This document shows positions 30,195-40,951 of a DNA stretch of 64,000 nucleotides, piece by piece (the first letter of the stretch is position 1; every line of letters starts with the position of its first letter). This DNA comes from Sulfurimonas sp. HSL-1656 (GTDB lineage: Bacteria > Campylobacterota > Campylobacteria > Campylobacterales > Sulfurimonadaceae): the NCBI RefSeq assembly GCF_039645585.1, contig NZ_CP147915.1, positions 434,001 to 498,000 of the forward strand, given 5' to 3'. The translations under genes were made by a program, and so were the position numbers. The notes below the pieces were generated by a model. That model worked only from the letters and a program-made list of their open reading frames with translations. It searched no databases and had not been told where the DNA came from.

Positions 30195-30530
30195 ATGAAA
30201 AAGATGATGATGGGTGTCGCAGCAGCGGCAGGTATCACTTCAGTTGCATCTGCAGCAGAACTGGCAGCTACTGATGCTCAGTTTATGTTCGGTGCGAGCA
30301 ATGTAGATGCAATCGCAATGACGGGTGCTGAAATGGTCGGTACGCAGGGACAACTGCTCGGTCTGACTATCCTGGACCCGGTTCTGAACATTGTCGGCAG
30401 CCTCCCGCTCGTCGGTCCGATCGTATCCGGTCTGCTCGATACTGTTGACGGTCTGCTCTCAGGTCTGCTCGGCGGCGGTCTTCCGCTCGTCGGCGGTCTG
30501 CTCGGCGGCGGCCTCCCGCTGCTCGGTTAA
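30195..30530 (+). CDS. Small secreted prepropeptide 1 with double-glycine-like motif
   Basis: I recognise no named family. The 111-residue product has a Sec signal peptide cut near SVASA (20), a linker DAQFMFG (27-33), then MTGAEMVGTQGQ (42-53). That stretch matches the double-glycine leader pattern LSxxELxxIxGG at the hydrophobic, S/T, E, L/M and first G positions; the last G is Q and the I is T. The rest (54-111) is a hydrophobic Leu/Gly/Pro core with two near copies of GLLGGGLPLVG. The linker and motif recur in the next gene. Likely matured by the C39 peptidase encoded at 32266. Confidence 0.7.
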   Translation: MKKMMMGVAAAAGITSVASAAELAATDAQFMFGASNVDAIAMTGAEMVGTQGQLLGLTILDPVLNIVGSLPLVGPIVSGLLDTVDGLLSGLLGGGLPLVGGLLGGGLPLLG

Positions 30531-30826
30531 CACACCCCTCTTACCCTTACCCTCCCTCCGGGGAGGGGTTCTTCTTTCCCTATTTCCAATCAACCTTCTT
30601 TTAACGACAACGACACAACTGATTCTGAACCGTGTCACATTTATTTAATTGTGATGTAAAGGAAAAATATTTTTGTTTTTCAATGTTTTAATTGTGATTT
30701 CTATACGAAACGCTAAATTATTTAAAAATTGTTGTATTTTTAACAATAGTTTAATGTGATACGGTATAAAGTTTACGTACGAACGTTAATTCAAACGCTT
30801 CAGGTATTACATCTAAAGGAGAAAAG
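30531..30826 (+). promoter_or_regulatory. Terminator and AT-rich leader between the two secreted-peptide genes
   Basis: The gap starts with a strong hairpin, CCCTCCC/GGGAGGG (30550-30567, loop TCCG), followed by a T-rich tail, which should end most transcription of the first gene. The remaining 250 bases are AT-rich and lead to AAAGGAG before the second gene, implying a second promoter. The two peptides can therefore be made in different amounts. Confidence 0.55.
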
Positions 30827-31231
30827 ATGAAAAAAGTGTTGGCAAGTATTGCAGTTGCAGGTATGATCACAAGCGTTAGCGCTGCAGATTTCGGCACAGC
30901 AGATGCACAGTTCATGTTTGGTCAGGACAGTGTCAATGTCGTAACGATGAGTGGTGCGGAAATGGCACAGACTGAAGGTCAGCTCCTCGAAGCACTTGGT
31001 GCACTCGGCGCGATCCCGGTCGCAGGTCCGATCCTGACGGATCTGCTCGCTAGCCTTAACCTCGGTGCACTGCTCGGTCTGGTACCGGCTGCACTTGGCG
31101 CGGCATTCCCGATCACGGCTGACCTCGATGTCAACGTCGGCGGCCTGCTGAGCATCGATACGGGCAGAGATCCGCTTACTATCGACTCCGGACTCCCGGC
31201 ACTGGTCGGTGCGGTCGTTTCCTCACTGTAA
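30827..31231 (+). CDS. Small secreted prepropeptide 2 with double-glycine-like motif
   Basis: A 134-residue paralogue of the preceding protein. Signal peptide ends near SVSA (19); then DAQFMFG (26-32) and MSGAEMAQTEGQ (41-52), again fitting the double-glycine leader pattern except for the final residue. The core (53-134) starts with LLEALGALGAIPVAGPILTDLL, hydrophobic and Gly/Ala/Leu-rich, but differs from the first protein and adds an Asp-rich tail (ADLDVNVGGLLSIDTGRD). Conserved pro-part with divergent core is what one expects of a processed peptide family. ATG 30827 has AAAGGAG upstream. Confidence 0.7.
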   Translation: MKKVLASIAVAGMITSVSAADFGTADAQFMFGQDSVNVVTMSGAEMAQTEGQLLEALGALGAIPVAGPILTDLLASLNLGALLGLVPAALGAAFPITADLDVNVGGLLSIDTGRDPLTIDSGLPALVGAVVSSL

Positions 31232-31242
31232 CAAACCCCGGT

Positions 31243-31275
31243 GTGCAGGTGCCAACCTGCACGCCACCCCTTTTC
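31243..31275 (+). terminator. Probable terminator after prepropeptide 2
   Basis: GTGCAGGT and ACCTGCAC form a perfect eight-base stem with loop GCCA (31243-31262), followed by a C/T-rich tail with short T runs. The barrel gene starts 74 bases after the stem. Confidence 0.5.
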
Positions 31276-31336
31276 TGCTTTTACTTTTTAAGTTGAATCC
31301 CCCTAAAATCATGATGAAATTACACAAAGGTTATTT

Positions 31337-32266
31337 ATGTTCAACAAAAAAGCATTATTTCGCTTTTTAGGTGCGGCGACACTGCTCTCGACACTGCTGC
31401 ATGCGGACGGCCAGACACCGCTGAAAGTCGAAGAACTTCTTTCCAAGAAAAATGCGTTCAACGTCGATGTCTCCGTCGCGTATTCCAACATCGACCAAAA
31501 AACCGCGATGAGTACGGTGGTCCCGGTATCGACGCTGCTTTCGTTCATCTACATCCCGGCGTATGCGGGGGAGCAGGTGCTTGACCAGGATGTGGTCGTA
31601 GCCTCGCTGAACCTCAAATACGGTCTGACCGATTGGCTCGAACTGGTCATGTATGCCAACGGGCACAACACCTCCAGCCGCGTGCAGCTCGGCGACGCGA
31701 TCGCGAACCAGGCAGATACGGATTTCGACCATGCGGGTATCGGTGCGACGTTCCGCGTCAAGGACGAGGGGGTCTACCCCTCGCTGCTGGTGGGGGTCTC
31801 GACCAACGTGATCGGCCGGCTGACTTTTGCCGACCGTGACGTCGACGGCAACGTTATCGGGACGACGAAACAGGACAAGACGTTTGAATCGTTCAACTTC
31901 TACGCGCTCTCCTATTACACGGTGGACCCGGTTGTCTTCGTCTTCAAAGCGCAGTACCAGTGGAGTGTGGAAGAGGATTACAAAGGGGATACAAGTGACC
32001 GCCCGGACATCCTGGCGATTTCCCCGCAGGTCTATTTTGCGGTCAACCCCTATACCAACCTCAGCTGGGGCGTAACCTACCGCTACCAGACGGAGCAGCG
32101 CTTTAACGGCAAAGTGGAAACGATTGCGGAATCTTCCATCGGCTATAACATCGGGGTAAGCTACGAGGTCTCCCGGGGCAACATCATTTCCCTGGATGCC
32201 AGCAACAACGAAACGGCCACGTACAGCCAGAACACGATCAACCTTATCTACTCAAAGCGGTTCTGA
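31337..32266 (+). CDS. Outer-membrane beta-barrel protein paired with a C39 peptidase
   Basis: The 309-residue product has a signal peptide ending near LHA (23), then many amphipathic strands (SVAYSNI, VVASLNLKYGL, AGIGATFRV, FVFKAQYQW, LSWGVTYRYQ) and a terminal phenylalanine after NLIYSKRF, as in outer-membrane barrels of about 12 strands. It resembles phenol-pathway MetA-type or FapF-like transporters in general plan only. Its stop overlaps the start of the C39 peptidase (TGATG), so barrel and peptidase are made together. It is the obvious outer-membrane exit for the two small peptides upstream. Confidence 0.7.
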   Translation: MFNKKALFRFLGAATLLSTLLHADGQTPLKVEELLSKKNAFNVDVSVAYSNIDQKTAMSTVVPVSTLLSFIYIPAYAGEQVLDQDVVVASLNLKYGLTDWLELVMYANGHNTSSRVQLGDAIANQADTDFDHAGIGATFRVKDEGVYPSLLVGVSTNVIGRLTFADRDVDGNVIGTTKQDKTFESFNFYALSYYTVDPVVFVFKAQYQWSVEEDYKGDTSDRPDILAISPQVYFAVNPYTNLSWGVTYRYQTEQRFNGKVETIAESSIGYNIGVSYEVSRGNIISLDASNNETATYSQNTINLIYSKRF

Positions 32267-32982
32267 TGAAACGGGCATTGCAGGCACTCTTCCCGGCACT
32301 CTGGCTGCTTGCGGCGGCTGATGTGTATGCCGGACAGGCGGAGGGCGAAGTGAAAACCGCCATGCCGATCATCGAGCAGGAGTACACCGTCAGGGTCCCG
32401 GTGAAAAGCTGGAGTGAGCTCAAAGAGCAGGATGTCGTACGCCAGCGCTACGATTTCTCGTGCGGTGCGGCGTCGATGGCGACGATCATGAACCATTTTT
32501 ACGAGCAGAACGTGACCGAGAACGGCATCGTTCAGACGGTCCTGAAAATGAAAGGTGTCGGCAGCGACGCGCATAAACTGGAGAAGAGCGACTTCGCCCT
32601 TTCGTTCGCGGACCTCGCCGACTTCGGGCAGACCATCGGGTTCAGGGGCGTGGGTGTCGCGATGGATATCGATGCCCTGCGCAAGCTGCGGATCCCGGTC
32701 ATCCTCTATGTCAAGATCCGCCGCTTCGAACACTTTACCGTTTTCAAGGGGATCCGCGGCGACTTCGTCTACCTGGCCGACCCCTCATTCGGCAATATGA
32801 AAGTGAAGATGGCAAAGTTCCTGGAGATGTTCTACCAGCGTGATGACCTCAAACACCCCGGGCGGGTGCTCGCGTTTATCCCGGTGGACAAAGAGGCCGT
32901 CCAGCCGGACAAAACGTTTATGACCGTCCCCGACTCCACCGACTACCTCTACCAGTACATCGAAAACAGGATCGACCACTAG
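32266..32982 (+). CDS. Periplasmic C39 family cysteine peptidase
   Basis: The 238-residue protein begins with a signal peptide ending near VYA (22). It then has the papain-like C39 core: oxyanion Q60 and catalytic C66 in QRYDFSCGAAS, catalytic H156 in FEHFTVFKG, and D172 in YLADPS. C39 domains usually form the cytosolic N-terminus of bacteriocin exporters and cut after double-glycine leaders; here the peptidase is free-standing and exported, like FapD of the Fap amyloid system. Translationally coupled to the barrel gene. Probable role: cleavage of the leader-like motif in the two small secreted proteins, or of the barrel's N-terminus. Confidence 0.82.
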   Translation: MKRALQALFPALWLLAAADVYAGQAEGEVKTAMPIIEQEYTVRVPVKSWSELKEQDVVRQRYDFSCGAASMATIMNHFYEQNVTENGIVQTVLKMKGVGSDAHKLEKSDFALSFADLADFGQTIGFRGVGVAMDIDALRKLRIPVILYVKIRRFEHFTVFKGIRGDFVYLADPSFGNMKVKMAKFLEMFYQRDDLKHPGRVLAFIPVDKEAVQPDKTFMTVPDSTDYLYQYIENRIDH

Positions 32983-33015: not shown

Positions 33016-33612
33016 TTAAAAGAGGAAGTTGATCCCGCCGTAGTAGCGTACGGAGTTGTCATCCGTCGAGAGCTTGGTGTAGCTCGGCGTGTAATACGTG
33101 ATGTCCTGCCATGTGCGCCACTGGAAATCGACGCCGCCCATCAGCTCCAGCTGCGGCGCGATGCGGAAGATAAGCCCTGCCCCGACCTTGAGACTGACTT
33201 CATTGATGCGGTCGTCATCAGGGTAATAGTAGTTGTCAAGCCGCATCGAACCGCTGCCGATTCCCGCCTGGATAAATGGCATCAAGGCCGAGTACGTTTC
33301 GAAGGTTTTCATAACATCCAGCCCGAGCTCGTACAGTTCGTCATTACTGTAGTCAAAGAGGGGCTCGTCGAAGAGTTCACCGAGCAGATAGCCCTGCAGG
33401 CGCCACCCGTCGTAGAGGACGGCCCCGAATTTAAGGGCGAAACCTTTGCTCCCGATCGATGGTCTTTCATGATAGCCGTTGGCTTCAAAATCGAATTTGT
33501 TTTCGCTGCCGAAAAGGTTCAGACCGAAATAGAGATCCGCCCGCTGCGCCCAGGCATTTGCCGAGAGCGCGCCCAAAAGCAGCGGGGTCAACAGGAGGGA
33601 TTTTCGCATCAT
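33016..33612 (-). CDS. Outer-membrane beta-barrel protein, hypothetical
   Basis: The 198-residue product has a signal peptide ending near NAWA (22) and a mature part of alternating strands with many Tyr/Trp/Phe and Gly, ending in a C-terminal phenylalanine (YYGGINFLF). This fits a small outer-membrane barrel. AAGGAA precedes the tandem ATGs at 33612/33609. It converges on the C39 locus and is probably a separate unit. No finer family call is possible. Confidence 0.65.
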   Translation of the reverse strand: MMRKSLLLTPLLLGALSANAWAQRADLYFGLNLFGSENKFDFEANGYHERPSIGSKGFALKFGAVLYDGWRLQGYLLGELFDEPLFDYSNDELYELGLDVMKTFETYSALMPFIQAGIGSGSMRLDNYYYPDDDRINEVSLKVGAGLIFRIAPQLELMGGVDFQWRTWQDITYYTPSYTKLSTDDNSVRYYGGINFLF

Positions 33613-38572: not shown

Positions 38573-40951
38573 CTAAAAAGCAGTACAGGTACCAATGTAT
38601 CCTGGAACGTTACACGCCTCGGTTAGACCAGTGCACGCAGTGTCACAACAATAAGCGTCCACACAGTTACCAGAAGTACAGTCACTGGTTGAAGTACACA
38701 GAGACCCATTGGGAAGTTTAGGAACGTCATCTGCGTTACCGTTACAGTTTTCATCAATTCCATTGCTTAGGATTTCAGTTGCACCGGGGTTGATGGACGG
38801 ATCCGTGTCATCGCAGTCGTTCAGGATCGCGCAGTAACCGTCCATGTCGGCGTCCGTACAGCTTGTACCGCTGTAGTCGATATTTCCATCTGGGTCGGCA
38901 CCGTCACTGGTGCCGCCGGGAACGAGCGGTGACGTGGAACTGTCGGGTGCCAGCGGATGCGGGTCGCTGCCGTCTTTGAGGGCATCGTCGTCCGTGTCGG
39001 CATCGGCGGGGTCCGTCTCGGAGGCGCCTACGGCACCGTTTGCATCAAGATCTTCGCCGCTGACGCATTCGGAGGCAACCGCGGCAGGGCCGTCGCAAAG
39101 GCCGTCGTTGTCGCTGTCGGCGTCGAGGGGGTCGGTGTGTGTGCCGGGATCATTGTCCGGCTGCCAGAGACCGAGGTTCGTACCGCTGTAGGCGATGGCG
39201 GCCGCACCGTCGCTGGTGCCGCCCGAGACGGCAGAAGTTGTTCCTATCTCGAGGCCGTCGATCAGGCCGTCATTGTCGCTGTCATTGTCAAGCGGATTGA
39301 GTGAATAGGTGACTTCAAGGCCATCCGGGATGCCGTCATCATCGGTGTCGGCGTCGAGCGCGTCAGTATTGGCGCTGAGCTCCTGGCCGTCGTTGAGGCC
39401 GTCGTTGTCCGTATCGGGGTCATTCGGGTCAGTGCCGTTTGTGATTTCCGCGGCGTCGGAGACCCCGTCGCTGTCCGCATCGGTAGAAAGCGTACCGCTG
39501 CAGACCCCCGTGACTTGGCAGATATCGTCGACGGTCAGAGGGTTTCCGTCGTTACAGGTTGTCCCTGCAGGAAGCGACTGGATGCTGCAGCCTGTGACCG
39601 GATCAGCGCTGAGCGCTTCGGGGCTGCAGGATGCAGTAGTGCAGGGGTTGCTGTCATCGCAGAACGTATCATTGGGTGTATTGCTGCATGCCCCGGCGGT
39701 ACAGACATCCATCGTACAGGCAAAGTTGTCGTCACAGACAGTCGCCCCATCTTCGTCTGTCGCACCGTCGCAGTCGTTGTCCAGGCTGTCGCATCCGTCC
39801 AGGACGCTGTTATAGGAGGCATCGTGGGCCAGGTAGACGGCGTCGTTGCAGGGGAGCCATCCGGCAGCGCCGCCGCAGGTTTTCTTCGCACCGCTGCAGA
39901 CGCCGTCCTGCATTTCACAAAGCTGCGCGATGAGGTCCGGATCGGCACTGTCAATCAGGCCGTCGCCGTCGTTGTCGACGCCGTCACAGACCTCGACTTC
40001 GTCGATCATACCGTTACAGTTGTCGTCGATACTGTTCCCAATGATTTCGGTTGCGCCCGGATAGACGTTGGGGTTGGTATCGTTGCAGTCGGTGGTAAAG
40101 GGGTACCCGTCCGCATCGGCATCGGCGGGAGCCGCCACGGTGTAGGAGAGTGAGAGTTGACCCAGCGCATTGGCGCCGGTGTCGTTCACATCGATGACGA
40201 GGGTTTGGGCGCCTTCCGACCAGAAGGTTTTAGCCGAAAAGGTCAGGCGGTCATTGGCATGGACGTCCGTGCTCCAGGCCCCGCCGTTGCTCTGGGGCGC
40301 CATCGTGCCGGAGAGCAGAAGGCTGGTCGTATCCATACTTCGGGTGAAAACGACGGCGACGGTGTCGTTGACCTCGATGTCCGAACTGCTTTCGGGAACG
40401 GCGATTGCTGTGAGCGGGACGGTCATGCCTGCGGCCACCATCCCTTCGCCCAGGGCGTGCATCGCTTCTACTGCCCCGACCAGCGTTATCCCCAGCGCCG
40501 CTTCGACGTCTGCGGCGAAAGTGGGGGAACTGAAATCCGTCCCCGCGGGCAGAGCGGCGATCAAAGTGCTGTTGAGATCGATAAGCCCGTTGTTGGGGTC
40601 GCCGTCCCCGTCAAGCGACTGCAGCAGCCGTGCCAGGTTGACGGCTGCAACGGTATCTGCCGGGAAGAAGCTGTAGGGAACGACCGGGCCGCTTTCAGCC
40701 GTGACGGTTCCGATGGAGACGGCGCCGACCGAGAAGGTGACGGTGTCGCCGTCCGGGCAGGTATACCCGCCGCCGGCATCGGTCGTGCCGGCCGTTCCGG
40801 AAGAACAGGCATAGGAGAGCCCCTGGACGGGGGCGTCAATAAACTGGCCGGTCACCGTCGGGGTGCTGCTGCCCCCGCCGCCACCGCCACACGCAGTCAA
40901 TAAGATCAACGCCGTAAAGGCGGGTAAGAGCATTCCCATCCGGATCATCAT
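38573..40951 (-). CDS. Large lipoprotein with MopE-type and thrombospondin-type-3 Ca-binding repeats
   Basis: The 792-residue protein has a lipobox (LLTAC, Cys21) followed by a Gly run, an N-terminal domain (to about 100), an Ig-like Big_5 region (about 178-275), a MopE-type metal-binding motif (DCNDTNPNVYPGATEI, GNSIDDNCNG), Cys-rich segments, a series of Asp-rich repeats (DTDNDGLNDGQEL, DTDDDGIPDGLEV, DNDSDNDGLIDGLEIG), and a second MopE motif near the C-terminus. Such repeats bind calcium and stiffen surface proteins. Probably an extracellular lipid-anchored adhesin or matrix protein. AAAGGA precedes two tandem ATGs. Confidence 0.8.
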   Translation of the reverse strand: MMIRMGMLLPAFTALILLTACGGGGGGSSTPTVTGQFIDAPVQGLSYACSSGTAGTTDAGGGYTCPDGDTVTFSVGAVSIGTVTAESGPVVPYSFFPADTVAAVNLARLLQSLDGDGDPNNGLIDLNSTLIAALPAGTDFSSPTFAADVEAALGITLVGAVEAMHALGEGMVAAGMTVPLTAIAVPESSSDIEVNDTVAVVFTRSMDTTSLLLSGTMAPQSNGGAWSTDVHANDRLTFSAKTFWSEGAQTLVIDVNDTGANALGQLSLSYTVAAPADADADGYPFTTDCNDTNPNVYPGATEIIGNSIDDNCNGMIDEVEVCDGVDNDGDGLIDSADPDLIAQLCEMQDGVCSGAKKTCGGAAGWLPCNDAVYLAHDASYNSVLDGCDSLDNDCDGATDEDGATVCDDNFACTMDVCTAGACSNTPNDTFCDDSNPCTTASCSPEALSADPVTGCSIQSLPAGTTCNDGNPLTVDDICQVTGVCSGTLSTDADSDGVSDAAEITNGTDPNDPDTDNDGLNDGQELSANTDALDADTDDDGIPDGLEVTYSLNPLDNDSDNDGLIDGLEIGTTSAVSGGTSDGAAAIAYSGTNLGLWQPDNDPGTHTDPLDADSDNDGLCDGPAAVASECVSGEDLDANGAVGASETDPADADTDDDALKDGSDPHPLAPDSSTSPLVPGGTSDGADPDGNIDYSGTSCTDADMDGYCAILNDCDDTDPSINPGATEILSNGIDENCNGNADDVPKLPNGSLCTSTSDCTSGNCVDAYCCDTACTGLTEACNVPGYIGTCTAF

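Follow-up and report, generated by a model that had tools for sequence, protein, structure and literature searches.

A locus in the window (the whole 64,000-nucleotide stretch of Sulfurimonas sp. HSL-1656 DNA that was analysed) probably encodes a two-step export system for small proteins, the cargo of which appears to be bacteriocin-like in many relatives. From the sequences, we put the probability of this reading at roughly 0.7. The two small proteins of the locus, P1 and P2, would cross the inner membrane via Sec, as indicated by their signal peptides. In the periplasm, an exported C39 peptidase would recognise the motif LxxxE(M/L)xxTxG(Q/E) in their pro-part and cut next to the glycine, a step suggested by motif conservation, co-occurrence and homology. 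The released core would then exit through a FapF-type barrel, to judge from homology, operon structure and linkage.

An earlier note on this DNA had proposed such a two-step Sec/C39 pathway and presented it as a candidate new system. The pathway itself gains from the conserved unit, the constrained motif and folds related to those of double-glycine peptidases and FapF. To call the system new goes too far, since a peptidase of this kind is already paired with such a barrel in Pseudomonas Fap (PMC5557850) and in Neisseria nap (PMC11798529).

Genes of the locus

All four genes of the locus are on the forward strand. P1 (30195..30530) is a preproprotein of 111 residues, with a Sec-type signal peptide, a pro-part and a Leu/Gly/Val-rich core. 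Its paralogue P2 (30827..31231) has 134 residues, and the two share 51% identity over the aligned part. Both match the pro-part profile (4e-13 for P1 and 2e-14 for P2), and no family was found for either in Pfam or NCBIfam. The signal peptides were called by eye and with a crude rule that asks for a charged start, a hydrophobic core and small residues, and which overlooks some cases when run in scripts. The pro-part, which runs from DAQFMFG to GQLL (30273..30359 in P1, 30902..30988 in P2), is kept across 57 precursors. It contains the double-glycine-like motif, MTGAEMVGTQGQ in P1 (residues 42-53, 30318..30353) and MSGAEMAQTEGQ in P2 (residues 41-52, 30947..30982). Cleavage is predicted at G52/Q53 or after Q53 in P1, and at G51/Q52 or after Q52 in P2. 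The alignment of these motifs with the classical leader LSxxELxxIxGG, made in the earlier note, holds in part: Glu at -8 and Gly at -2 are identical in both proteins and Ser at -11 in P2, whereas Met at -12, Met at -7 and Thr at -11 are conservative changes and not identities.

The outer-membrane barrel (31337..32266), of 309 residues with a signal peptide, is followed by the exported, FapD/FilB-like C39 peptidase (32266..32982), of 238 residues. The barrel stop and the peptidase start overlap by one base, in the sequence TGATG (32264-32268), as confirmed by direct reading. The two Sec-type preproteins with their double-glycine-like motif, the barrel and the exported C39 peptidase were thus all recovered as first described, and so was the paralogy of P1 and P2.

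The peptidase matches Pfam PF03412 (3.6e-15) and, under that model's cut-off, NCBIfam C39_FapD (2.9e-28). With the FapD equivalog NF058616 it scores 98.7 bits, below the cut-off of 330, as compared to 401.5 bits for the FapD of a Pseudomonadales genome in which the fap operon is complete. The FilB model, from the putative Fil pilus system, also matches (2.6e-22), but at 79.5 bits against a cut-off of 475. The residues Q60, C66, H156 and D172, described in the earlier note as an intact set, are invariant in 23 homologues. The AF2 model of the peptidase (pLDDT 83.8) has a fold related to the double-glycine peptidases, its matches being those of PCAT1, LahT and ComA; the LahT match is 6mpz, a structure solved with a leader peptide. 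The free, exported peptidase of the window is the sole PF03412 match in the genome, so processing by a C39-bearing ABC exporter is impossible, and export through a C39-type ABC transporter was rejected.

The barrel matches FapF structures at the profile level (5.6e-13). The fifteen best solved matches of its AF2 model (pLDDT 82.9) are all FapF chains, with E values from 7e-12 to 9e-9 and TM scores of 0.6-0.75. By profile and model, the proposed outer-membrane barrel is therefore a FapF relative of the 12-strand type. The AF2 model has about 20 mostly disordered residues between the signal peptide and strand 1, and the N-terminal coiled coil and linker of FapF are absent from it.

An immunity candidate was sought among the small open reading frames around P1 and P2, and none looks like one. 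Elsewhere in the window, a lipoprotein-like protein of 792 residues (38573-40951, reverse strand) is rich in Asp/Asn repeats of the calcium-binding type.

Conservation of the leader and the gene set

Searches with the peptidase covered 60 relatives first and then GTDB genomes. Loci were found in Sulfurovum, Thiovulum, Helicobacter and the Campylobacteraceae, and remoter ones in Aquificota, Deltaproteobacteria, and Beta- and Gammaproteobacteria. In the Campylobacterota loci, the pro-part profile detects Sec-type small proteins; it gives 57 unique precursors, nearly all adjoining the machine or sharing a genome with it. The gene order is peptide-barrel-peptidase in most loci.

The leader positions are nearly fixed among the 56 scorable precursors, so the lack of motif conservation that would have spoken against the earlier note's reading is not seen. 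The consensus is L(-12), E(-8), M/L(-7), T(-4), G(-2) and E/Q/K(-1), with Leu or Met at -12 in 53 precursors, Glu at -8 in 54, Met or Leu at -7 in 54, Thr at -4 in 51 and Gly at -2 in 54. The last 30 leader residues average 65% identity within genomes, against 29% for the cores and 17% for shuffled cores, which upholds the view that the pro-part is conserved while the cores diverge. Cleavage is predicted to adjoin the motif glycine, as G|Q or Q|L.

Residue -1 (Glu in 39 of the 56, Gln in 6 and Lys in 4) is not the usual Gly, Ala or Ser, and this counts against the two-step export reading. It would also suit a C39 protein acting as a non-cleaving chaperone, with the pro-part as a mere targeting segment for the barrel, and some C39-like domains do work without catalysis (PMC5557850). 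However, the catalytic residues are invariant in the homologues and FapD requires its catalytic Cys (PMC5557850); we regard the chaperone explanation as quite unlikely. Residue -1 may not be under selection, because RGG and SGR motifs both accompany a peptidase of this class in one fap-like locus.

Among 399 Campylobacterales genomes, 16 have both the leader and a close peptidase (E<1e-60), 6 the leader only, 3 the peptidase only and 374 neither. With the leader in 22 genomes and the peptidase in 19, the Fisher test gives 5e-21; by genus, the counts are 11, 4, 2 and 70 (3e-9). Both p-values overstate the association, because related genomes are not independent. Moreover, the leader profile was built partly from neighbours of the peptidase, a bias that favours co-occurrence. 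A search with P2 only therefore gives a less biased view: it finds 7 genomes at E<=0.001, 5 with the peptidase and 2 with the precursor by a contig end. The small-protein homologues are thus seldom found without the machine in these genomes. Their common occurrence alone, which the earlier note had named as speaking against its reading, is not seen, and the profile search across genomes that it suggested bears out the co-occurrence with the peptidase.

Chance association of the small proteins, which would work with signal peptide removal alone, with a peptidase and barrel that serve something else would account for the precursors distant from the machine and for the few genomes that have leaders without it. 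The scattered precursors sit in genomes that own the machine, however, and conservation is far stronger in the leader than in the cores. In addition, several leader-only genomes stop at a contig edge (G011 and G098) or in masked DNA (G025); in G086 the barrel and peptidase are broken, and G193 and G080 give weak matches. The machine is likewise at a contig edge in two of the three peptidase-only genomes (G059 and G111). We consider accidental linkage highly improbable. In G086 (locus L170, 6248-8011), the broken barrel and peptidase lie beside an intact precursor, apparently a decaying copy.

These sequence comparisons support a single conserved unit made up of the propeptides, the barrel and the exported C39 peptidase. 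Two genomes have precursor matches spread over the chromosome (seven in G360 and six in G401) and a single barrel-peptidase pair each. This suggests that the precursors need not adjoin the machine and that substrates act in trans.

Outside Campylobacterota, the motif E(L/M)xx[TVILSFYM]xG was sought in Sec-type proteins within 5 kb of the peptidase in 69 loci, mostly from other phyla. Such a protein is present in 19 loci, as compared to 2.7 expected from shuffles. Without the five loci that were drawn from the motif search or selected in the light of it, 14 of 64 remain, two of which (L067 and L105) look like chance. Examples come from Cupriavidus, from Aquificales with a full GG (ELDDVSGG), and from gammaproteobacterial fap-like operons (ELSEYRGG). 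Compact plasmid cassettes are found on an E. coli Col156 plasmid, on Acinetobacter plasmids and on C. concisus pCCON16. Related E. coli plasmids keep the barrel, leader and peptidase and vary in their core and in how many tiny membrane open reading frames they have; a match is present in only 6 of the 5426 complete E. coli genomes. On the E. coli plasmid pN51a (L223, 100-393), an annotated E492-group microcin is directly upstream of a barrel-peptide-C39 cassette. The Campylobacter jejuni plasmid p4549-2 (L211, 87-1549) has an overlapping barrel and C39 gene, beside which no precursor was recognised.

Cores and cargo

Cores other than the window type have a median length of 35.5 residues and a median charge of +2, and some have a cationic tail of the KKIKKWFRW type or a GWWK tail. 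A further class of cores reads FWP...NAP...YxG (the NAP class). For 7 of 9 NAP-class precursors, the gene directly after them encodes a small membrane protein (<=140 residues, >=2 predicted membrane helices), as compared to 15 of 426 background gene pairs. This small polytopic protein looks like an immunity protein. In Helicobacter-type loci, an outer-membrane protein of about 245 residues comes after about 21 of the other precursors; it is possibly a partner, a receptor or an immunity protein. In loci L152-L159, L035, L047 and L053, the non-NAP precursors are mostly followed by a close protein of this length and of one type. The outer-membrane protein gene that neighbours the window locus (33016-33612, reverse strand) was considered as a relative of these Helicobacter proteins and gave no match. 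Exported proteins of about 160 residues that resemble one another are located between the precursors and the barrel in L160 (7401-7886, reverse strand), L167 (7126-7608, reverse strand) and L023 (1994-2224, where the copy is cut by masked DNA); no such protein is in the window.

Family scans of 41 precursors returned weak matches only; in NCBIfam the lactobin/cerein class IIb bacteriocin family was the commonest, with 4 members and a best value of 0.005. With short, variable and often cationic or glycine-zipper cores, the cargo of many relatives is most likely bacteriocin-like.

The cores of P1 and P2 are acidic (net charge -3 and -6) and, at about 58 and 82 residues, longer than the median. 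These properties count against the two-step export reading, as does the absence of an immunity-like gene from the window. The two cores are Leu/Gly/Val-rich, with imperfect LPLVG-type repeats, and less certainly would be membrane-active or surface-coating peptides. Their acidity, their greater length and the lack of an immunity-like neighbour make a coating, fibre or self-lytic role possible.

A reduced Fap-type fibre system, in which P1 and P2 would build a surface fibre or a hydrophobic coat after maturation and export by the FapD/FapF-like pair, shares its pathway with the two-step reading and differs from it only in the role of the cargo. The kinship of the peptidase and barrel to FapD and FapF, the length, composition and repeats of the window cores, and the lack of an immunity-like neighbour are all compatible with it. 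On the other hand, the cores have 2% Asn+Gln, as compared to 15-17% in FapC/FapB, which also makes the amyloid option raised in the earlier note a weak one. They contain 7-9% proline, P1 and P2 match no Fap subunit family, and the disordered stretch that precedes strand 1 in the barrel model is short. The fibre explanation is therefore tentative and the less favoured of the two.

Relation to known systems

Class II microcins and double-glycine bacteriocins are exported by peptidase-containing ABC transporters and carry the leader code LxxxELxxxxG. The export system proposed here resembles them in leader code, peptidase fold and diversity of cores. In contrast, the window genome lacks a C39-bearing ABC exporter and its peptidase is free and exported. 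The motif comes after a Sec-type signal peptide instead of standing at the very N-terminus; residue -1 is Gln, Glu or Lys in the precursors, and the window motif ends in GQ.

The closest studied gene set is the nap island of N. gonorrhoeae (NapA-C, NapP, NapF and NapI), described by Poncin et al. in 2025, with double-glycine peptides, a C39 peptidase, a FapF-like channel and an immunity-like gene (PMC11798529). Periplasmic cleavage was proposed there (PMC11798529), and the arrangement is therefore known in outline. A C39 relative from N. gonorrhoeae (L215) is also among the matches listed in our searches. The window likewise has double-glycine-type peptides, a C39 peptidase and a FapF homologue, with a motif that ends in GQ and not GG. 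Differences are that signal peptides on the Naps are unmentioned and NapH is suggested for inner-membrane transport (PMC11798529), that the window has no NapI-like gene, and that its cores are not short, cationic mature peptides. Naps promote stationary-phase lysis of the producer, and the gonococcal Nap peptides, when synthesised in their mature form, showed no antibacterial activity (PMC11798529); the latter result counts against the two-step export reading with bacteriocin-like cargo. Self-directed peptides, as proposed for the autolytic Naps, in place of weapons against competitors are conceivable on these grounds. This is unlikely, given that the Naps are short and cationic, the window cores acidic and longer, and that many relatives have immunity-like partners.

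In Fap (PMC5557850), too, a C39 peptidase exported by Sec is paired with a barrel of the same fold, and FapE bears a similar double-glycine-like leader after the signal peptide. In comparison, no Fap subunit homologue was found adjoining the window locus, the window cores have no FapB/FapC-type Asn/Gln repeats, the barrel has no long N-terminal region, and the cargo of the window's relatives is small and very variable. In a Pseudomonadales genome with a FapD above the NCBIfam cut-off, FapE is located between FapD and FapF, and LxDx(E/Q)(L/M)x(Q/N)LRG(K/R) is found directly after the signal peptide in all 23 FapE copies found in the genus. The surrounding FapE residues are also conserved, so conservation alone does not single out this motif; it is singled out as a putative site by its match to the leader code. 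According to Rouse et al. (2017), Fap secretion requires a periplasmic and catalytically active FapD, and by mass spectrometry only FapE appeared N-terminally processed, with no peptides in its first ~70 residues (PMC5557850). The FapE leader is thus a specific candidate for the FapD site, consistent with that work and with a 2018 review that also reports fapD-fapF pairs in five more phyla (PMC6173800).

The odds lean slightly toward a broader interpretation, in which passage by Sec, cleavage by a periplasmic FapD-class C39 peptidase and exit through a FapF-class barrel form a general Gram-negative route of double-glycine peptide export with a leader code of its own. In Campylobacterota and on Pseudomonadota plasmids, this route would carry bacteriocin-like peptides that come with immunity genes, and Fap amyloid would be a specialised branch in which FapE is cleaved. 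In the open-access literature, no description was found of the Campylobacterota members, of precursors with a signal peptide plus pro-part as the rule, of a leader code across many genera, of the immunity-like pairing in Campylobacterota, of precursors in trans or of the FapE leader.

The analysis provides periplasmic C39 peptidases with a concrete leader code and points to unannotated bacteriocin-like precursors in Helicobacter, Sulfurovum, their relatives and small plasmids. It also names a testable candidate cleavage site in FapE, where the FapD target was said in 2017 to remain "unclear" (PMC5557850) and in 2018 the substrate was yet to be determined (PMC6173800).
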